Assembly (NCBI GenBank): GCA_022641835.1
Contig: CP048715.1
Location: 1,302,001-1,366,000, forward strand
Length of the DNA: 64,000 bases
Direction of reading: 5' to 3'
Origin: Petasospora fabianii
Taxonomy: Eukaryota > Ascomycota > Saccharomycetes > Phaffomycetales > Wickerhamomycetaceae
In this document: positions 15,351 to 29,826 of the stretch, one piece after another
Numbering within the stretch: position 1 is the stretch's first letter
Layout: every line of letters starts with the position of its first letter
Notes under the pieces: generated by a model
Told to the model about the DNA's origin: nothing
Database searches by the model: none
What the model saw: the letters and a program-made list of their open reading frames with translations, nothing else
Position numbers and translations under genes: made by a program

Positions 15351-15404
15351 TGCTATAGTATATTTATATTATATCGACGACCCCATCAATATAAAATAAA
15401 AGAG

Positions 15405-15621
15405 TTGCGTCAGAAGCCTTGCAGTGCAATGGCATCGACACTATGTAGAAAAGCCCAATGAGCAAGCCCATTGTAAAATTTTAATAAATTAAAATTTAAA
15501 CTTTCTACCATAAGCCAAAAATAAGGGTAACTAACAAAAAGTCCTCAATGAGGACATTCCAGTTGTTACACTGAAAAGAACAGATACTACACTTGATCTT
15601 AGCCAAAAGGCAAAGAGATTT
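15405..15621 (-). ncRNA. LSR1: U2 spliceosomal snRNA
   Basis: Read on the minus strand, the 5' part AATCTCTTTGCCTTTTGGCT, then AAGATCAAGTGTAGTATCTG, then TTCTTTTCAGTGTAACAACT is almost identical to S. cerevisiae U2. The branch-point pairing sequence GTGTAGTA is intact. Hairpin II GTCCTC/GAGGAC follows, then an Sm site TTATTTTTGG (around 15518). Beyond it lie stem III and a terminal hairpin with loop ATTGCACTGCAA (like the U2A'/U2B'' loop). At roughly 217 nt it is of metazoan-like length, far shorter than the about 1.2-kb S. cerevisiae RNA. The ends are estimated to a few bases. A TATA box CTATAAAAGG lies 65-73 bp upstream. Confidence 0.92.
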
Positions 15622-19492: not shown

Positions 19493-20293
19493 TCATTGCT
19501 GCCTATTTTGTAATTCCTTCTTTCTCATCTCTTTAACTTGAGATTCTCTATGGAATTGGACTCTACTTAAGAAGTCCTGTCTTTCCAAATAACCATCTTT
19601 ACTGTTTTGAACCAATTCATCATTGATACCCTCTTTGTCAACAAGCTTAGCAAAATCAACTCTAGATTTCTCCAATGTGTTAAACTTAGGTTTAATAGAT
19701 CCATTAATGATACCTTCCAACAGTGGAGCTCTTTTTTTAACAACCCTTAACTTTTCACCACGTTCATTGAAACCTGACTTGATATCAGACTCTTGTTCTT
19801 TGTTATCACTAGATTCCTTTGAAGCATTAGATTCAACTTTCTCTTTATCTTTTAAAGAGTTAAGATATGCTTTACCTTCAGCACTCTCCCTATCAACCCA
19901 TTTCTCCTCTGTAACCATCTCACCAGCATATTCATATCTTCTTTTGATCTTAATCTTCTCCGATGCCACAAGTGAATGTGTTGCTTCTTGTGCATCTGCA
20001 CTGTATTTAAACTTGAGTCTTTGCCTTGATTGTTCCATTAGTTTCTTCCATGCATCATTTACATCAACACTACCACTTTGTAATAATGATACACTTTTGA
20101 AATCTCGCGTTGATGAATGCGTTTCAATGGCTCTTTGGTGTCGTGTCTTGATAAGTCCACCTTCAGATGATTCAATCTTGGAATAATTAGCACGTTTAAC
20201 TTCCTTCTCCGTTTCAGCATCAAAGTCAAAGTCAGCATCTTCATTATGGTTCTTGGGTTTAGATGATTTACGTTTCCTCTTGGATGAATTATC

Positions 20294-20324
<31 letters not shown>

Positions 20325-20443
20325 CCACTTAAGTCATTATCATGGACGTTTTCTGGATCAAAATCTTCATCTTCATCTTCATTGTACTCCTTATCTTCTT
20401 CTACTTCTTCCACTTCTTCGTCTCTCTTGTGTTTCTCAGCCAT
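19493..20443 (-). CDS. SWC5: SWR1 complex subunit Swc5 (BCNT domain)
   Basis: 316 residues. The first 70 residues are highly acidic, including an eight-Asp run, then basic KRKRKSSKPK. The C-terminal 80 residues form the BCNT/CFDP1 domain: KFNTLEKSRVDFAKLVDKEG, then INDELVQNSKDGYLERQDFL, SRVQFHRESQV. A conserved WKKLMEQSRQRLK block lies mid-protein. Swc5 is needed for exchange of H2A for H2A.Z by the SWR1 remodeller; its acidic part binds histone. Expected length and start. Confidence 0.9.
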
Positions 20444-21039
20444 TATGTCTAGAGGTTAGTTGTGAGTTGATAACACTTTAAGTAGTAGTAGTAGTAGTAA
20501 GTTCCATTGACCTTTGTTGTTGGGAGGGAGGGTAAAACACCCGGACATCTTGATATCATCACTACAAGATCTAAAACTTGATAGATAATCATTGGTTGAG
20601 CATAGATGTTTGTTAAGGTATATATCATAGGTAATAGTTTCATCTAAATAGGTGTATGGGATAAAGATAATGGGTTCAGATAAGTCTTCTTTTGGCCGTA
20701 AAATGGAGAATACGTATAGTCCTGGGAGTCGTCCACACAGTGTATATAAAACACGGGATTAACTGCATAAAAGACTTTAGCCAGAGATCCTATGAGTAGA
20801 ACTACAACGATCTATTGATAAACCCTTAAAAGCATTGCAATTGGTATATATCTGGGTTTATCATTAATGATTCTTATCCAAGTATTTGTCTTTTGAAGGT
20901 AGTGTATGTTTGTGTTACCCGGGTAACTAACAGACATGTCGTTTCTGTGGCAGTGGAGTCTTTTATACATATATAATAGATATATAAGGCTTTCTAACAT
21001 TATAAACAACTCATAAGACACTTATTTTCCAAGCCGAAA
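20444..21039. other. Intergenic: SWC5 promoter and flank of the structured region
   Basis: A short AGT trinucleotide run at about 20483-20502 lies just upstream of SWC5. A strong + strand TATA-like box TATATAAGG lies at 20981-20989, about 60-100 bp before the first repeats of the structured region; it faces away from SWC5. No gene is seen. Confidence 0.45.
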
Positions 21040-21390
21040 GGCTCATTGATCTGTTGAAAGATCCTGATGATGTCGATGATGATGTTTGGGTCATGTGGCG
21101 CTGGCTACTCTGCGACTGGGCTCTTACTGATTTCATTTAAGTCATCTGGATTGGGATACCAATGAGTAGATCCTACTGATTCATGCAACGAGTGTTGATC
21201 AAAGGAAAGTTTCAGTTTGGTTTACATGTACTTCGACTCTGTCGACCCATGTGCATCGCGTGGTTTTGTGCTTGTTACTACCAGTTGTCGTTGCTGAAGA
21301 GCTAACCATGCCTTCATTCCATTCTGTTCTTCCTTGGTCATCTTCTGAGCAATATATGAGTCCAATTTATCTTGCTATTCTATTAAACAG

Positions 21391-22005
21391 CTCGGCACGG
21401 CTTGGAGATGGAGGACAAATGCCATTGATGTTTCACACTACTTAACCCCTACGGAGAGGCCGTGCTTTCCTGCTTTCATTATTGTGGTTATGTTCAGTTG
21501 TCAAGTCAGCTCGGTTTGAAAGTAGTGTCTTACCACGTATCTCATACGTGTGAACTTGCATTTTAGGAGTGTTGCGGTACTTCTATCTATAGGTCGAGGG
21601 GTAGAGCTTCAGTGCTCTTCATTCACTACTTTCACCAACTGACAAGATTCTGGATCAGTGATTCATGAGTCAACGGACCCCGTGGATCTCCAGTGCTACG
21701 TCTGATAAGTTACAGGTTTAACATATGTTTACATGTGTGTCCTTGCATGATATGTCTTTTGACTATCTATAAGTCAAGGCAGGTGAGCTAACTGCCTCCA
21801 TTCCGGTATCTTATCTTGACAAAGCACTGCAGATCCATCATGGGCTCTCGGACCACCTTGACTATTGAATGTTCATGTATCAACTCAGACGTGCTGTAAT
21901 GTCTACTCATGTGTCTTCACATGTGTCCTCGCTTGTCGAGGCTGATGAGCTAACTGCCTTCATTCATTACTTCGGCACTTTGACAAGATACTGAACACTC
22001 GTACC
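21391..22005 (+). repeat. Copy A of a ~620-bp direct duplication with three hairpin units
   Basis: It aligns end to end with copy B at 22581-23215 with moderate divergence. It starts with CTCGGCACGGCTTGGAGATG and ends near TACTGAACAC. It contains an arm GCACGGC (21395-21401) with GCCGTGC (21459-21465), then unit 1 (about 21525-21645), unit 2 (about 21715-21820) and unit 3 (about 21900-21992). Confidence 0.8.
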
Positions 22006-22380
22006 TAGGAGGACCACTGAACAATACCTGGCAGACCCAAACTGCAATCCCCTGGTACTAACACCAATAATCAGAAGTCTTTACAAAGTTATGACTGCCT
22101 GCTCAAAGTTGACTCCATTGGAATGCTCAGTGATACCATATGACTCGAAGGAAACTACCGTCTGGAGTTCTAGAGATGGTTTTGGTATTCACAAAGCTTC
22201 TATTCGGTGACTTGAGAGTTAATTCTCTTGGTATGGATGTTCGATATTGAACCAGTGCTCCCTTGATCAAGGAGCTACGGTGACACGACATCTTCATATG
22301 CCAGTGAGTGCAGCCTCACTAATCTCTCTGTTTCAAACAGCCATCATGATGCTCCCTGTGTTAATCTAAGAGTTACGTAT

Positions 22381-22487
22381 TGGTCTAACATGGTTTCACA
22401 TGTGTCCTTGCAAGACAATCATTAGATTGTCTATAAGTCAAGGCAGGAGTGCTAACTGCCTCCATTCCTTTATCATTTTCATCTTGA
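22381..22487 (+). repeat. Isolated hairpin unit 4 between the two duplicated blocks
   Basis: The unit includes CACATGTGTCCTTGC, a perfect 8-bp stem AGACAATC/GATTGTCT (22413-22432), the closing AAGTCAAGG-type strand and the GGCAG/CTGCC stem followed by TCCATTCC. It has no partner block, so unit number differs from the simple two-fold duplication. Confidence 0.75.
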
Positions 22488-22580
22488 GGAGGCACTTTTG
22501 CTCATGAATGTGTTGGAGGTCGCCTTTCCACAAGGGAGCTGTACACCTCTGACAATCCACCAGAGAGATTATGTCAAATG

Positions 22581-23215
22581 CTCGGCACGGTTTGGAGATG
22601 GAGGTTATTTTCCCATTATTGTTTTACTACTTGACCTCTTCGGAGAGACCGTGCTTTCCTGCTTATGTGGTTATGTTCAGTTGTCTAGTCAGTTGGGTTG
22701 AGAGTGGTGTCTTACCATGTGTCTACACATGTGAACTTGCATTTTAAGAGTGTTGCGGTACTCTTATCTATAGGTCGAGGGGAAGAGCTGTTAAGCTCTT
22801 CATTCACTGCTTTCAACTACTGACACAAGACTCTGAACTAACGATCCCCTTTCCCCCTCTCCGAACTTATGCGTCAATGGACACTGTGGACCTCCGGTGC
22901 TACGTCTGATGGGTTTACTGGTTTAACACATGTTTACATGTGTGTCCTTGCATGGTATGTCTTTGGCATATCTTAAGTCAAGGCGGGTGAGCTAACTGCC
23001 TCCATTCCGGTATCTCGTATAGACAAAGCACTGTAGATATGATCCCTCACAGGGATCTCCGGACCACGGTTACTGTTGAATGTTCATGTGTTGACTCAGT
23101 TAAGTTGCTGGATGTGATGTCTACTCATGTGTCTTCACATGTGTCCTCGCTTGTCGAGGCTGATGAGCTAACTGCCTTCATTCATTACTACCGCACTCTG
23201 ACTCAATACTGAACA
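22581..23215 (+). repeat. Copy B of the ~620-bp direct duplication with three hairpin units
   Basis: It matches copy A. Arm GCACGGT (22585-22591) pairs with ACCGTGC (22648-22654). Units 5 (about 22707-22825), 6 (about 22921-23024) and 7 (about 23113-23201) correspond to units 1, 2 and 3. Confidence 0.8.
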
Positions 23216-24532
23216 CCCACATTATAACTTGAGCTGCCAGTATACAGCCTCTCAGAGAGGTGGATTGGTCTCAGGGGAATCGTCCACATGTGGCATATAC
23301 CAATTGAAGTCGGAGTTGAAGGATGCCCAGCCAAAGAAGAGCTGCGAGCAGGGAGGAGTCCGTTGCCTTATATCACACCCAGGCGTGTCAATTGTTATAT
23401 GTCTAGGGTGCCCTAAGGGCCAGTGCTTCTTCGGGGTCAGTGTCTGCATGGAGGTCGGTGTTTCACCTCTTAGTTGAAGGACTCCGTACACCTCCCGCTG
23501 GCCCCATCTAACGAGGGGGAAGCCAGTATGGCCTCGCACATGACGGTGGACTAGACCTACCACGACAGTCATCGGGGTGTGAGCTTCCTTCTTGGGACAG
23601 TGACATGGGGGCTCGTGTGCACCTCAATAGTAGGCTCCGGATTCCCCTGTGCCTGGCAACCCGAACGGGGGAAGTCGGCAAACCCTAGGTGGTGTCCCTC
23701 GCAGACAGGTGGAGAAATCCTGGAGGGTCATCCCAGGATGTCGGACACTTCTCCCCCCAGGTAAAGACTACGGAGATGGTCGTCAGAGTGCCACCTAGGA
23801 TGGAATAGGAAGGAATTGGTGGTCTCTGGACACGACTATCCCGAATAGTCCCTGGCAGTGGGAAAAGCCTTACGCTGACCCAAAAGTAGATCCGCGGCCC
23901 CTGGGAAGAGGTACTAACGTTGAACATAGACAGGGTGGACAGAGTGATGGATGATACCCCGGTGGTGTTGTTCTTCCCCCAGGTGGGGATACTCAGGTGG
24001 CCATGAATCGTCATAGGCAGTGAGGTTGTGCCTCTCCATATTGAGGCATCGGACAAATTCACTGGGGCCCAACTCTTTGCACACAACCTGTAGTTTCAAC
24101 GTAGAGGCCACCATTAAAGCAAGAGGCCCTTCCTTGCTATATTAATGGTCCCAGTGGGGTCAAAAATGTTGGGTAATCATGGGAGAGCGGGGGCATGTCC
24201 GATTTTTCGTAGGTATCGGGCCCTGGCTGGCTATGTTGTAGGAAGGCGTTGGAGATAGAAGGAGGGCAGCTATGCGTCTCTAGTGCACATGTACGGATGC
24301 AGTAGGCTCGAAGTAGTAATATAAAGCTTGTTTCGTGCTTGTAGATGATGCGCTGGCCGTGTTATGGTAAAATGAAGTAAAAACGGGTGGTGTCATGACG
24401 CGTCAGGGAGACATATAGTCCTCGAGTGATCCTTATATCACCGATTACAAGACTTTACAGTAAATTTAAGTAGCTAATATATGCTCAGTAGTGCGAAGGC
24501 GTATGTGAGGGTGAATTTGGGCTGCTATACGC

Positions 24533-24570
24533 AGGTATAGACCAGTTAATCAATGAGGTGTAACAGGATA
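24533..24570 (+). repeat. 38-bp dispersed repeat, copy 1
   Basis: AGGTATAG-(C/AG)-CAATGAGGTGTAAC-GGATA type sequence. About 28 of 38 positions match the copy at 25679-25717, including GAGGTGTAAC and GGATA. Confidence 0.65.
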
Positions 24571-24786
24571 GACTTCGCCATCGTGACAGAACATCATGAC
24601 GAATCCTCGGTTGAAAGCTATCTGGGGGCAAATAAAGTGGTATAAACCTTCCGGAGGTGACTGAGAAGGCAGAGAATGACACTGAAGGCAAGTACGGGCC
24701 GTTTCAAGCATGTTTCACGACATATGATCGATCTACAGATGTCAGAAATCTGCCTGATTTTGAAAACGAAACGCCGTACAGTTAGG

Positions 24787-24913
24787 ACAATCATACACAA
24801 TGGAATTGAGCCATAAAGAGGTGTAATGTTGTTTCTATGGTACCTGAGACCCCTATCTACGGTCTCTATGCGGTTTCTGCCGTTAATTCTCGTTCTTCAT
24901 TGTGTATGATTGT
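24787..24913. ncRNA. Candidate small structured RNA or foldback element
   Basis: A perfect 16-bp terminal stem, ACAATCATACACAATG (24787-24802) with its reverse complement (24898-24913), encloses GAATT/AATTC (24803-24807, 24885-24889), CCATA/TATGG (24811-24815, 24836-24840) and GAGACC/GGTCTC (24846-24851, 24861-24866). Such a multi-branch layout looks like an RNA gene; a foldback or MITE-like element is the alternative. No known family recognised. Confidence 0.4.
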
Positions 24914-25678
24914 AGTTCACTAACAAGAGACAACGTGATCTAGGAGGTCGTATCTCGTGAAAAGACGCATGGCTGCTATACCAGAATAGCTTGGTTTACA
25001 CCTCAAGGGCACTATGGTTCGAAAGCCTGTGAGCTACACGTTATATTGATGGTATTCTTAGGCTGTGAAAGGAAGGAACTCGTGTGTATGATCATTTTGT
25101 TAGTTTAATTAATTTCGTGGAATTTTTCTGCACTTTCCTGCACTTTTCGCGAGGAATATGCACTATCATCGTATATATATATATGCACATTGGCCAGTGT
25201 GCATTATAATGCATAACTATGCATTGATGAAAAATGCTACGACGTACTGTTCAAATACTTTATCGAGTTTACTATTCACCTAGTGAACACTGTTTTTGGT
25301 TTGTTTGTTGGTAAAGTAGTCCTCGGATAACTGCGCCCTATGTCCTCGTTTTCATCAAGCACGTATTCAAAATTTGTCGTTTGACAGTGAGACAAATTTC
25401 GCAAGTGTATTTATATTTATATCTTGATGACAAGAAATGGCCACTAAAGAGAGATATAATGGGAGGTTATGAATACCTCCTCTTTTCTCCCTTTTGAATT
25501 GTTGAAGCCTGAACATAATATTAGGGGATTTCTTTCTGTTGAGAAGATCTCTGGCCATTCGCTCATAAACATCAATTGAGTTAAGCGTATAATCATGATC
25601 AGCAACACCTGTTTTGGAAAGGAGCGGCATATGAGTGCAAACTTATGTGACACAGATAGCTATTCAACAGTTATAGAT

Positions 25679-25717: not shown

Positions 25718-26314
25718 ATACTAGTCGTTTATATCCCTGCGCTCCTCTAACTGCAGCCCTGGGCCCTCAACCCTAAGCGAATCCTGACATCACCAAAGAG
25801 AAGAAAAGGCTGTGGTTGGAAAGAGAATATGGAGCTAAAAACATCTTAAGCGTAGCAAACCAAACAATGAATAATAGAGATCAACAATAAGATACTTGTG
25901 ATGCTACAATAATTGCCCCAGCGCGATGCTCTCTTTCACTTGCACTTAACTGTCACTTCTAAAGGTGCTCTCCATCACTTGCACTTAGGGGTCACAAAGG
26001 TCAACCACTGCACATTGATAAGACAATGGCGGGGGAGACCTTTAAGATCATCAAACATATCAAAACTATCAACAACTAAGAACATTAAGGACACTAGGCA
26101 CAGGTAAACATAAGTTAACATAAGTTAATACCATATATACCACATACACCCGCACACCATCACAGTTTTTTTTTGTTTTTTTTCTTTGCGTATGACTCGA
26201 CGGGCGGTGACGCATACGCTGTGTCATACGTCTTCTTTATATAAGTTCCCACACTCTTCCACTGTTTCTTTCCTTTGTCTACTCAATTCATCCATTAAGT
26301 ATACACATACAACA

Positions 26315-27316
26315 ATGCCAGTTGCTCAGAGACTCTTTAGCACTTCTGCCAGACTTCCGATCCGCCATCTCGTGTCCATCTCGGACCTCTCCACTGCAGA
26401 GTTCGACACGCTCGTCTCTAAGGCTATCAAATTCAAGTCCATTGTCAAGGAGAGTAACCCTTCCGAGATCAGAGAGCACCATGATAAGCTCCTAGGTAAG
26501 ACGGTTGCTCTTGTCTTCTCCAAGAGATCCACCAGAACTAGAATCTCCTCCGAAGGTGCCGCTGCATTCTTAGGTGCTCAGCCAATGTTCCTCGGTAAGG
26601 ATGACATTCAGCTTGGTGTCAATGAGTCTCTCTATGACACTACAAAAGTGATCTCTTCAATGGTTTCCACCATCTTTGCCCGTGTCAACTCTCATACAGA
26701 GATCCAGAACCTTTGTGAGCACTCTGATGTGCCAATCATTAACTCTCTCTGTGATACATATCATCCACTCCAGGCAATCACCGATATCATGACCATCCGT
26801 GAAGCCTTCCCAGATTCTAGAAAGGGTCTTAAGCTCACATGGATCGGTGATGCTAACAACGTCATCAACGATCTCTTCATCGCTTCCCTTAAGGAAGGTA
26901 TTAACGTCTCGATTGCTACACCAAACGGTATTGAAATCAAACCAGAGATCGTTGAAGTTGCCAAATCGGTCTCTAAAGAGACAGGAGCCACATTCGAACT
27001 GACACATGATCCAATTGAGGCTTCAAAAGGTGCAAACATCCTCGTAACAGATACATTTGTGTCTATGGGTGAAGAGGCAGAGACTGAGAAGAAACTTAAA
27101 CAGTTCTCAGGATTCCAAATCTCCAATGATCATGTCAAAGTTGCTGCTCCAAATGCTAAATTTATGCATTGTTTGCCTCGTCATAAGGAAGAAGTCACAG
27201 ATGAAGTGTTCTACTCTCCAAACTCTTTGGTTTTCCCAGAGGCCGAGAATAGACTGTATGCTGCCATCTCTGTCATTGACACTCTTGTCGTCAATAAGGG
27301 TGACTTCTCCAAGTAA
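26315..27316 (+). CDS. ARG3: Ornithine carbamoyltransferase
   Basis: 333 residues from the ATG at 26315. It carries the carbamoyl-phosphate site STRTR (in SKRSTRTRISSEGA), the LGVNESLYDTTKVISSM loop, HPLQAITDIMTI and the ornithine-binding HCLPRHKEEV. It converts ornithine and carbamoyl phosphate to citrulline in arginine synthesis. The N-terminus MPVAQRLFSTSARLPIRHL is Arg/Ser/Thr-rich without acids and looks like a mitochondrial presequence, unlike the cytosolic S. cerevisiae enzyme. A frame extension upstream begins with a TTG and is not used. It is convergent with TRL1 (65 bp apart). Confidence 0.95.
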   Translation: MPVAQRLFSTSARLPIRHLVSISDLSTAEFDTLVSKAIKFKSIVKESNPSEIREHHDKLLGKTVALVFSKRSTRTRISSEGAAAFLGAQPMFLGKDDIQLGVNESLYDTTKVISSMVSTIFARVNSHTEIQNLCEHSDVPIINSLCDTYHPLQAITDIMTIREAFPDSRKGLKLTWIGDANNVINDLFIASLKEGINVSIATPNGIEIKPEIVEVAKSVSKETGATFELTHDPIEASKGANILVTDTFVSMGEEAETEKKLKQFSGFQISNDHVKVAAPNAKFMHCLPRHKEEVTDEVFYSPNSLVFPEAENRLYAAISVIDTLVVNKGDFSK

Positions 27317-27381: not shown

Positions 27382-29826
27382 TCAGTAGTTCACCTCTAAA
27401 ACAGCATGCTCAATTATAACATCTTCAAGCTCCACAATATGCACACCTTTCTTCCCTTCCATTGCCATTTTTGCCAATTGATTAGAATAAAAGGGCTTAA
27501 TAGACTCATCAGCAGTACCAATTGTAATATGAATAAACTCATTACCAATCTCCAACATCAACTCCTTATCAGGATGTAACTTATCAACAAATTTCACATC
27601 CTTCACAACGACACACATGGCCTTTTCATCCCAGACTATAGACTTAAGAGTCAAATCACCATATATGGAGGAGAGAGGTTCCCCTGATGCCTGCTTCATG
27701 GATTCAATTGCCCGATATTTCTCCCAAACCGACTTTTCACGATCAGTACCACGACGTGCCTGATTAATATGGCATGTTGTCACGTGGAATTCATCTTGGA
27801 TCCGATTGACCAACTGAAGGTGTTGAAGAATCGATGGGGTGTCCTGAAGCCTCTCAGTGATGAGGGCAAGAATTTGGGAGTGTGGGACTTTTAGGGAATA
27901 GTAGACTGGGGACCGAGTCTTTTCCTCTGGTTTCCGTTGTTCCTTTTGCTTGTTACCTTTGTTCTTGTTCTTACCACCAAACGTCTTGGTGAAAGTTGGT
28001 TTGAATGCAAGAGCTTTTTCGAAGCTTGATTCAAGGGAAGATTCAGATGGAATGGACTTGACCAAGAGTGGGTACTTTTCATGTAAAGATGTGAGAACTT
28101 TCTTAGCATTATCTAGCGAAGAGTTCTCTTTGCCAACTTGTAAGTCAATTATGAGGTCAAACTGAGCATCTGGATCCTTAGATGGCGTACATGGCTGGAA
28201 TCTTCCAATGAACCCCTTCATGATCTTTTCAACAATCTCTGGATCATCACTGGCAGCCTTGATTGATTGATGATTATCACCACGTTTGAAGACACGATCC
28301 CTAGTGACTTCCCAAAGTTCATCTGATGTGGTATCATCACCAACAAAGTTCAAACATACAAACTGAAGATTGTTGTTGTAGGCAATGTAATCCTCCTTTA
28401 ACCTCCTGACAGTGTCAATGATCTGTTGACGTTCACGGAACTGATGGTTGTTTCGATCGAGGAACACAGCCTTCTTTCCTTCTTTCAAATGTGTTAATCC
28501 ACGCTTAACAAACTCAGTAGGACCATTCTTACCATTTGGGATATCATCATTAATAACCAAGGACCACTCATCAGGGAAACATTCGGTAATGGTCATCGCG
28601 GTGGTGGTCTTACCACACCCAATAGTGGCAATTGGCACAATAACAAACTTTGTATCCTCATTGATTGTGAGTTTCTCCATGGAAGTGTTCAACTCCTCCA
28701 GCTCTTGAATCTTCTCATGACTCAAGATCTCAGAACCAGACATACCATAATCTTGCAAGAACTTTTTTCTTAATGAAATGATACCAAATCCTTTCAAGAA
28801 CTCTTCACGTAACGACTTATCAGAATCAAGTAAGGGGATTACAAAGTCAAGATACTTGTTCGTGATGTATCTATGCTTCGAAATCCTGATATCAGCCCTG
28901 TTCCGTGTGTTGATGTATTCACGTGTGACTTCTCTCCATTGTCTGTACATGAGATAAGGTTCTTCAAACTTGAATTTGAAGAAGAGATCATTGTTGTTCT
29001 CATTGGTCATATGTGTACGGATCACAAACCCTTCAGATTCACGGCCATTGTAAGAGCCGGTCTTAGCGCACTCTTCCAAGAAGGTCTTAAGGTCAGGTAT
29101 GTTGGACTTTTGTAAGTATTCTGTTGGCTTGAATCCGTATTTGAGAGCAAAGGCTTCAACTTCCTCCATTGGACGAGTCTCAAAGATTGGTTGATTCGTA
29201 TTGAGTCCATGAAGATAAAGTCCTGATCTGTCCTTTGAATACTCCACAACATGCTCCTCAAAGGAATCATCACATAGCTCAGCAACTGCAGTGCATTTCA
29301 TCTCCCATAACATCTTTGCAAACTCCTCAACAGTGATACCTTTCTCCTTCAACTGTCTAGTCAATGCTTCTTCTCCAGCAACAGCATGGCTTCTTGAACC
29401 ATCCTCTCTCTTTCCGTACGAATGCTTCGAGCAAACCAAGATGGTACCATCTTTCAATCCAGAGAAGAAAATGATACAACCATTCTCCTTAGCAGTGACA
29501 ACATAGGGTCCCTTAGTGTTCTTCTCAAGCCAATTCCATTGTGTATTCCTCACTTCATCAACGTTGAAAAACTTGTCATATCCACGCACCACAATCTCAT
29601 TATCTAATGTAAACAGACCACGAGCATGGGAGGGGAGCTGGACCTTGTGTGGCTTACCGTAGTCCCATTCGTTGAACTTCCACGAGACTAATGTCTTGAG
29701 AGTACCAGAGTGTGTTCTGAGTGGGAAGGTGTTCTTGAAAGCACGACCACGGGGCTTGAGATTCGTGTGCTCTTCTAATTTCGGGATCAGCTCAGCAGTG
29801 GTGGTCGGTTGCCATTCGAATGACAT
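27382..29826 (-). CDS. TRL1: tRNA ligase
   Basis: 814 residues from the ATG at 29826 (MSFEWQ). Three catalytic parts are in order: an N-terminal adenylyltransferase/ligase with nucleophile Lys113 in TAKENGCII; a polynucleotide kinase with P-loop ATIGCGKTT (about 400); and a C-terminal cyclic phosphodiesterase with the paired His motifs FHVTTCH and FIHITIG. Trl1 joins tRNA exons after intron removal and HAC1 mRNA in the unfolded protein response. Length agrees with the yeast enzyme (about 827). It is divergent from DLD1. Confidence 0.95.
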   Translation of the reverse strand: MSFEWQPTTTAELIPKLEEHTNLKPRGRAFKNTFPLRTHSGTLKTLVSWKFNEWDYGKPHKVQLPSHARGLFTLDNEIVVRGYDKFFNVDEVRNTQWNWLEKNTKGPYVVTAKENGCIIFFSGLKDGTILVCSKHSYGKREDGSRSHAVAGEEALTRQLKEKGITVEEFAKMLWEMKCTAVAELCDDSFEEHVVEYSKDRSGLYLHGLNTNQPIFETRPMEEVEAFALKYGFKPTEYLQKSNIPDLKTFLEECAKTGSYNGRESEGFVIRTHMTNENNNDLFFKFKFEEPYLMYRQWREVTREYINTRNRADIRISKHRYITNKYLDFVIPLLDSDKSLREEFLKGFGIISLRKKFLQDYGMSGSEILSHEKIQELEELNTSMEKLTINEDTKFVIVPIATIGCGKTTTAMTITECFPDEWSLVINDDIPNGKNGPTEFVKRGLTHLKEGKKAVFLDRNNHQFRERQQIIDTVRRLKEDYIAYNNNLQFVCLNFVGDDTTSDELWEVTRDRVFKRGDNHQSIKAASDDPEIVEKIMKGFIGRFQPCTPSKDPDAQFDLIIDLQVGKENSSLDNAKKVLTSLHEKYPLLVKSIPSESSLESSFEKALAFKPTFTKTFGGKNKNKGNKQKEQRKPEEKTRSPVYYSLKVPHSQILALITERLQDTPSILQHLQLVNRIQDEFHVTTCHINQARRGTDREKSVWEKYRAIESMKQASGEPLSSIYGDLTLKSIVWDEKAMCVVVKDVKFVDKLHPDKELMLEIGNEFIHITIGTADESIKPFYSNQLAKMAMEGKKGVHIVELEDVIIEHAVLEVNY

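Follow-up and report, generated by a model that had tools for sequence, protein, structure and literature searches.

A dispersed yeast repeat family with tandem predicted four-way junctions, a candidate large structured non-coding RNA

RESULTS

A 4.3-kb non-coding element belongs to a dispersed family

The window, the whole 64-kb stretch of DNA analyzed here (C1:1302001-1366000), contains a 5.7-kb gap between a BCNT-domain gene and an OTC gene (Table 1). Within this gap lies a 4.3-kb non-coding stretch (~20914-25188) in which promoter boxes, a leader, repeat units, a nearly invariant 1-kb core, a tail and a downstream motif follow one another, and which is part of a dispersed family. A preliminary description of the window had placed the feature at 21394-23215; these limits have to be replaced, as the element is longer and is dispersed over 14 places.

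Table 1. Features of the element, of its neighborhood and of the genome discussed in the text (window positions unless a contig is given)
Feature	Position	Strand	Remarks
BCNT-domain gene	19493-20443	-	Pfam
Upstream promoter box, palindrome GTTACCCGGGTAAC, presumably Reb1-like	20914-20927	.	
Second promoter box GTTTCTGTGGCAG	20941-20953	+	
TATA-like stretch TATACATATATAA	20964-20976	+	direct reading
Leader	21046-21326	+	sharp conserved 5′ edge; 3′ limit approximate
Unit 1, type 1, predicted four-way junction	21517-21635	+	second covariance model, E 2.1e-24
Unit 2, type 2, predicted four-way junction	21706-21814	+	second covariance model, E 7.3e-22
Unit 3, type 3, predicted four-way junction, short second arm	21891-21976	+	second covariance model, E 1.3e-13
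Unit 4, type 4, predicted four-way junction	22374-22478	+	second covariance model, E 1.5e-10
Unit 5, type 1	22699-22816	+	second covariance model, E 8.1e-25
Unit 6, type 2	22910-23018	+	second covariance model, E 5.8e-21
Unit 7, type 3	23109-23194	+	second covariance model, E 4.5e-16
GC-rich core, nearly invariant	23233-24216	+	
Tail, type A	24217-25144	+	many substitutions, almost no indels
16-bp perfect hairpin arms in tail	24787-24802 and 24898-24913	+	
Downstream motif TTTCGCGAGGAATATGCAC, then another TATGCAC	25145-25188	.	
OTC gene	26192-27316	+	Pfam
Ty1/copia-type reverse-transcriptase matches	C2:934971-935690, C4:61691-62410, C4:1069520-1070239		open frames 1506, 1506, 986 aa

The gap sequence, used as a DNA query against its own genome (12,335,623 bases, 16 contigs), gave 22 matches. 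Family copies of ~3-4 kb each are scattered over 14 places in the 12.3-Mb genome, and a search with the core recovered 13 full-length copies, including that in the window, together with one broken copy on C2. The latter, L043 (C2:709500-719499), is a decayed member whose core is in two pieces. For comparison, we used ten kilobases of sequence around each of the 13 other loci (L031-L043).

Protein coding was rejected. As the preliminary description had noted, no long protein frame runs through the element: the longest plus-strand stop-to-stop frames have 91 aa in the window and 143 aa in L031. The tail lacks a 3-base rhythm, and the minus-strand core frame at 23685-24095 reaches 100 aa in only 8 of the 13 full-core copies. 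The core holds two minus-strand stop-to-stop stretches, that one (136 aa) and 23252-23623 (123 aa). A known RNA family was rejected as well, in agreement with the preliminary description. In the window, the only Rfam 15 matches were U2 and one tRNA, neither of them in the element; across 20900-25600 at E ≤ 5, it gave only sR11, below the gathering score (E 0.55); and two other loci, L031 and L036, searched with L047 and L048, gave no match.

No flanking gene is common to the 13 other loci in a protein comparison of ORFs of at least 100 aa, barring one ORF of L036 and L037, and Pfam placed nine of 10 flanking ORFs from other loci in ordinary families and one in none; on these grounds a shared flanking gene family was rejected. 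The exceptional ORF, of 175 aa, lies upstream of family members on C4 (L036:2260-2787 and L037:1968-2495). Its two copies are 95% identical, that of L037 has no Pfam match, and a distant relative (27%) occurs at L036:790-1344; the pair is a local segmental duplication. Insertion linked to tRNA genes was rejected because ARAGORN detected none in the ten kilobases taken at each of the 13 other loci. Within the collections searched, a bacterial, plasmid or viral origin was rejected: a 23-base pattern from the core had no exact match among viral contigs and genome contigs, and the 1075-base core had none in plasmids at E ≤ 1e-5.

The repeat units are predicted four-way junctions

Folding of aligned copies with RNAalifold identifies the seven repeat units of the window as seven predicted four-way junctions, each with an outer stem and three arms. 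The hairpins named in the preliminary description are present where it had located them (e.g., CACGTAT/ATACGTG at 21534-21550), but the outer closing stem that makes the unit a four-way junction had been missed.

A first covariance model was built from type-1 units alone, using 17 of the 18 such sequences (L031:4441-4560 was left out). This model matched, at E 3.4e-7 to 0.31, 37 of the 38 type-2 and type-3 units counted by the second covariance model in the 14 loci, in register and on the family's own strand. One of its 56 matches, at window 28920-29016 (E 0.057), does not belong to the family. The second covariance model found exactly seven units in the window, all with E ≤ 1.5e-10 and on the plus strand only, and over the 14 loci a total of 62 units and one weak leader match. 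There are seven units in each of the window, L031, L036 and L040, five in L039, four in L034 and L035, and three in each of the seven remaining loci. The seven copies reported earlier were thus all recovered but are not independent, since 22580-23216 (units 5-7) duplicates 21390-21998 (units 1-3) at 80% identity.

Substitutions in the units keep the predicted fold

We aligned nineteen three-unit modules, all paralogues from one genome, by sequence, masking non-homologous 5′ ends in eight of the 19 and removing gappy columns before the fold and covariation tests. RNAalifold gave every unit in this alignment an outer stem around three arms. The energy was -248.3, compared with -173.9 ± 8.6 for a tree null of 25 alignments, each refolded after its substitutions had been redistributed over the unchanged tree (z -8.7), and the covariation term stood at z +12.0 relative to the refolded nulls. 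Against 25 column shuffles the energy reached z -19.5. On the minus strand, too, the modules exceed the corresponding null (energy z -9.0, covariation z +9.6), with a weaker energy of -207.6.

In the 17 type-1 units, 97.7% of 748 cells are paired, versus 36.5-56.2% when the partners are slid. Twenty cells are changed on both sides, compared with 6.7 in shuffles, none of which (0/500) was as high. The number of pairs with a double change, four, is unexceptional (57/500 shuffles reach 4), and additional pair types number 20, fewer than the 21.7 of the shuffles. A structure-guided alignment across unit types (52 rows, 51 distinct), which was fitted to the structure and so leans towards it by construction, has 87.7% of cells paired. 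Of its 44 pairs, 31 carry double changes, and these pairs are spread over all five helices; all five measures exceed every shuffle.

Individual events were scored by placing substitutions on the tree by parsimony, with canonical pairs and 100 nulls. At paired sites, 118 of 199 events (59%) keep a pair, whereas the nulls keep 36.5 ± 2.4% (highest, 43%). Double compensations number 14, versus 2.9 in the nulls (highest of 100, 6), and one-sided changes keep pairing 104 times and break it 77 times. Because this scored a structure on the alignment that had produced it, we ran the test again with structures each predicted from one sequence (L041, the window or L034) and scored on the remaining 18. 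The kept events were then 155/285 (54%), 147/301 (49%) and 146/291 (50%), versus 36% in the nulls (highest, 44%, 40% and 41%), with 16, 11 and 18 doubles (highest null, 9, 9 and 8). Slid structures gave 0-2 doubles; as they kept between 0.34 and 0.61 of a smaller number of events, the kept fraction does not by itself decide against sliding.

Pair-by-pair covariation is weak. A home-made, R-scape-like all-pairs test of the modules gave two column pairs at E ≤ 0.05, which have one column in common and of which only one is a base pair; applied to the unit alignments, with their few independent lineages, it gave none. Arm a switches between two block states, one found in 9 and the other in 8 sequences. 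The excerpted text of one source warns of phylogenetic covariation and, by its headings, of pseudogenes (PMC11234323), and both warnings apply here because all sequences are paralogues from one genome. Within these limits, substitutions in the units keep, in aggregate, the fold beyond the phylogenetic null. The preliminary description's claim of selection on the fold is borne out by the module energies and by the doubly changed cells of the type-1 units; its expectation of covariation above a phylogenetic null holds for these paralogues in aggregate, but hardly pair by pair.

Base-pair changes favor a plus-strand RNA

Changes from Watson-Crick pairs to G-U number 62 and those to A-C 22, versus 78:64 in the nulls (binomial p 2.7e-4). 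The lean is smaller with the single-sequence structures, where the counts are 82:38, 96:59 and 81:48 (nulls, 84:74, 92:79 and 83:78). Structures folded without G-U on the plus strand contain 92 G-T versus 41 A-C cells, and those folded on the minus strand contain 33 G-T versus 84 A-C, which is the same bias; in both cases the cells are not independent of each other. Greater tolerance of G-U than of A-C points to a plus-strand RNA and not to a cruciform. Where the preliminary description had proposed an RNA (or cruciform) structure, these comparisons favor RNA as the selected structure and disfavor the cruciform.

The core is nearly invariant and the tail varies at constant length

The segment 23216-24290 is 90-96% identical to the 12 other full-length copies; L043, with its broken core, was left out of the core and tail alignments. 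Because the core is nearly invariant, it contains too few changes for a covariation test: four pairs of varying columns were listed, and the core has G-T 44 and A-C 36. Folded as one sequence against 20 shuffles per strand, the core reaches z -3.7 on the plus strand and z -0.7 on the minus strand. Divergence is strongly uneven along the element: in five of the six type A copies (L034 was left out), the region 23400-24200 remains 94-100% identical, but past 25300 similarity drops to less than 50%. TACTAAC, which we take to be the yeast branch-point consensus, occurs twice in the element, at 22056-22062 and, within the nearly invariant core, at 23912-23918, where possible 3′ splice sites follow.

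L035 and L040 are 96% identical across units and core, yet their tail types differ, so changes may be copied as blocks. Exchange of sequence between copies is thus visible at the core-tail border of this pair, and core identity need not reflect selection alone.

Type A tails differ from each other by 81-214 substitutions and only 0-3 indel events per ~712 aligned bases (15 pairs), and type B tails by 74-194 substitutions and 1-4 indel events (10 pairs from five of the seven type B copies; L037 and L039 were left out). Substitutions reach ~30% between copies of one type, and the two types align to each other with few indels. The tail has no 3-base periodicity, variable columns being distributed by phase as 165/177/167 (A) and 184/185/176 (B). 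It is length-locked, and its fold, like that of the core, is partly supported. Type B folds better than the tree null (z -5.3 on the plus and -4.4 on the minus strand), whereas type A does no better than the null (z -1.7 and -0.4); none of the covariation terms of either type is notable (z 0.4 to 1.2). For 11 tails together (L037, L039 and L043 were left out), the fold reaches z -3.1 (+) and -1.1 (-) with covariation z 0.4 and 1.4, and the consensus fold also contains the 16-bp hairpin of Table 1. The home-made all-pairs test gave no significant pair in the tail.

Promoter boxes, leader and downstream motif suggest a gene-like layout

The palindrome at the start of the element is the only site in the 64 kb that fits the pattern CCCGGGTAAC (at most one mismatch, both strands). 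The equivalent position is occupied by CCGGGGTAA in L031 and L033 and by CCAGGGCAA in L036 and L037. The second box precedes the leader in five of the eight leader-bearing loci, and the boxes stand amid poorly alignable sequence. Genome-wide there are six exact copies of GTTTCTGTGGCAG, four of them in the family, and one further family copy with one mismatch; since the first box is absent from the 60 bases before the two non-family exact copies, a general promoter box was rejected.

The leader is present in 8 of 14 loci and conservation starts sharply at its edge, 21046. In L038 it is present without a promoter box, and in L039 and L040 it follows further family units. Six copies (L032, L034, L035, L041, L042, L043) are leaderless and therefore without a known promoter. 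Relative to the tree null, the plus strand of the leader shows fold z -3.9 and covariation z +7.1, and the minus strand z -2.8 and +3.0, which partly supports a leader fold that substitutions would have kept beyond the phylogenetic null. The leader holds a divergent eighth unit-like stretch, and a weak unit match lies in the leader of L031 (3007-3131, E 0.02). Family members carry at their 3′ end all seven exact genome matches to TTTCGCGAANNNTATGCA and three of the five matches with one mismatch, including that in the window; the downstream motif was found in 10 loci. Together, the promoter boxes, the sharp leader start and the downstream motif support what seems to be a gene-like layout.

DISCUSSION

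A structured plus-strand RNA under selection is very probably encoded here. We lean modestly toward the fuller interpretation that the element belongs to a multicopy family of genes encoding a long (~3-4 kb) structured non-coding plus-strand RNA. Transcription, probably by Pol II, would start from the two-box promoter at 20914-20953, and the RNA would then fold, with a leader first, 3-7 four-way-junction units in an array next, and after them a large core that does not vary and a tail constrained in length; among these steps, the unit fold is the one that comparison of the copies establishes, as a predicted structure. Such an RNA could act as a ribonucleoprotein scaffold or decoy. Each unit would present its arms and conserved unpaired bases to one protein in an identical arrangement, the 3-7 equal units would give valency, and the core would do a job that does not vary between copies. 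We propose this multivalent scaffold or decoy role only tentatively.

Could the family instead be a non-autonomous mobile element? This is the main rival: the fold would be needed for copying or packaging of the RNA, which the reverse transcriptase of another element would move. The copies are dispersed and most adjoin unrelated genes, unit number varies, six copies are leaderless, and the genome has three Ty1/copia-type reverse-transcriptase matches with equal scores. However, terminal repeats were not seen, self-comparison revealing the unit duplication only, and there is no sharp 3′ end, the 3′ ends being ragged. A search for the terminal repeats, poly(A) and sharp ends of retrotransposons or SINEs found the leader's 5′ edge to be sharp and none of the other marks. 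In L035, L041, L042 and L043, similarity does not stop at scattered points but no more than 33 bases from where a type-1 unit begins; in the leaderless L032 and L034 it is lost further upstream. The strongly uneven divergence and the lack of tRNA genes in the 13 ten-kilobase loci also argue against mobility, as does the finding that five leaderless copies keep pairs like the others (19/32 versus 48/88 terminal-branch events); the sixth, the decayed L043, keeps pairs in 14 of 31 events on its own branch and breaks them in 17. We therefore consider a mobile element unlikely and a host-type gene family probable. If the family is a mobile element after all, it would be of an unusual kind, one that needs a large folded RNA in order to spread. 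The only RVT_1 match in the genome, at L049 (C9:339762-340112 region), belongs to a telomerase reverse transcriptase (Telomerase_RBD and RVT_1).

Three further alternatives were considered. Old repeats could have no function, their palindromes persisting through gene conversion or template-switch repair and apparent compensation spreading in blocks. Block exchange between copies is real, arm a occurs in two block states and single-pair covariation is weak; yet double changes occur in pairs of all five helices across unit types, one-sided changes also tend towards pairing, the tail is indel-poor, and promoter and downstream motifs are conserved, making this account quite improbable. Selection on a DNA structure (a cruciform, origin, boundary or fragile site) would be compatible with the near-perfect short palindromes of arm a, the palindromic upstream box and the palindrome within the downstream motif. 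It would not lead one to expect the asymmetry between G-U and A-C on one strand, a multi-arm junction with an outer stem, or a core whose fold is better than that of shuffled sequence on the plus strand alone, and we regard it as very improbable. Finally, hairpin repeat loci yield small interfering RNAs in yeasts with RNAi, and the family does consist of dispersed hairpin-rich repeats. Its many arms are short, however, in contrast to long inverted repeats, and a search for Argonaute gave no Piwi-domain match at E ≤ 0.001 in the genome, the assembly of which may be incomplete; such a source is extremely improbable.

Beyond the ribosome, the spliceosome, RNase P/MRP, telomerase and similar cases, eukaryotes have few large RNAs whose intricate folds are conserved. 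Whether the structured plus-strand RNA proposed here represents a giant class of RNA new to eukaryotes is in our view evenly balanced. On that reading, gene copies dispersed in a yeast genome would yield transcripts of 3-4 kb, made up of four-way-junction units in tandem, a 1-kb core that hardly varies and a tail locked in length, and these would form a scaffold or self-assembling particle. A multicopy yeast RNA family of such size would open a directly testable question of function. From recall and a search of the open PMC literature, we know of no kind of system with this make-up. Among the matches listed in that search, judged by title and start of abstract, no such family was found; the same repeats may have been described earlier as plain DNA repeats.

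Several known systems share single traits with the element. The Xist A-repeats and roX are repeat-domain lncRNAs with tandem short structured units; the element would, like them, place tandem structured units in one long RNA, as fits multivalent protein binding, but compared by description only, they are not known to form multigene families of this kind, and the unit here is a predicted four-way junction. Fission-yeast meiRNA is a decoy lncRNA from a single locus with linear motifs. It and other decoy lncRNAs resemble the action proposed here, in which repeated sites would hold a protein, whereas the element, again going by descriptions, belongs to a dispersed family. SINEs, MITEs and other non-autonomous elements are likewise dispersed, non-coding and multicopy; the present family is much longer, combines uneven conservation with fold-keeping substitutions, and revealed neither terminal repeats nor a poly(A) tail nor sharp 3′ ends. 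According to the excerpted text of PMC12286853, GOLLD, ROOL and OLE are large ornate bacterial RNAs and, like the element, large, intricately folded non-coding RNAs supported by comparison. On that partial account they are the nearest in style and not the same family, since the element is from a yeast, spans 3-4 kb, occurs at 14 places and contains tandem junction units.

Two further observations concern the same genome. It is yeast-like, in that a 968-aa part of RPB2 aligns over its whole length with the budding-yeast subunit, with nearly equal scores for the S. cerevisiae chains and for 5x4z_B; all four CTG codons of this part align with leucine in S. cerevisiae, and CUG is thus read as leucine. 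The U2 snRNA of the window (15399-15619, minus strand) is full length relative to Rfam at 221 bases only, unlike the very long U2 of S. cerevisiae.
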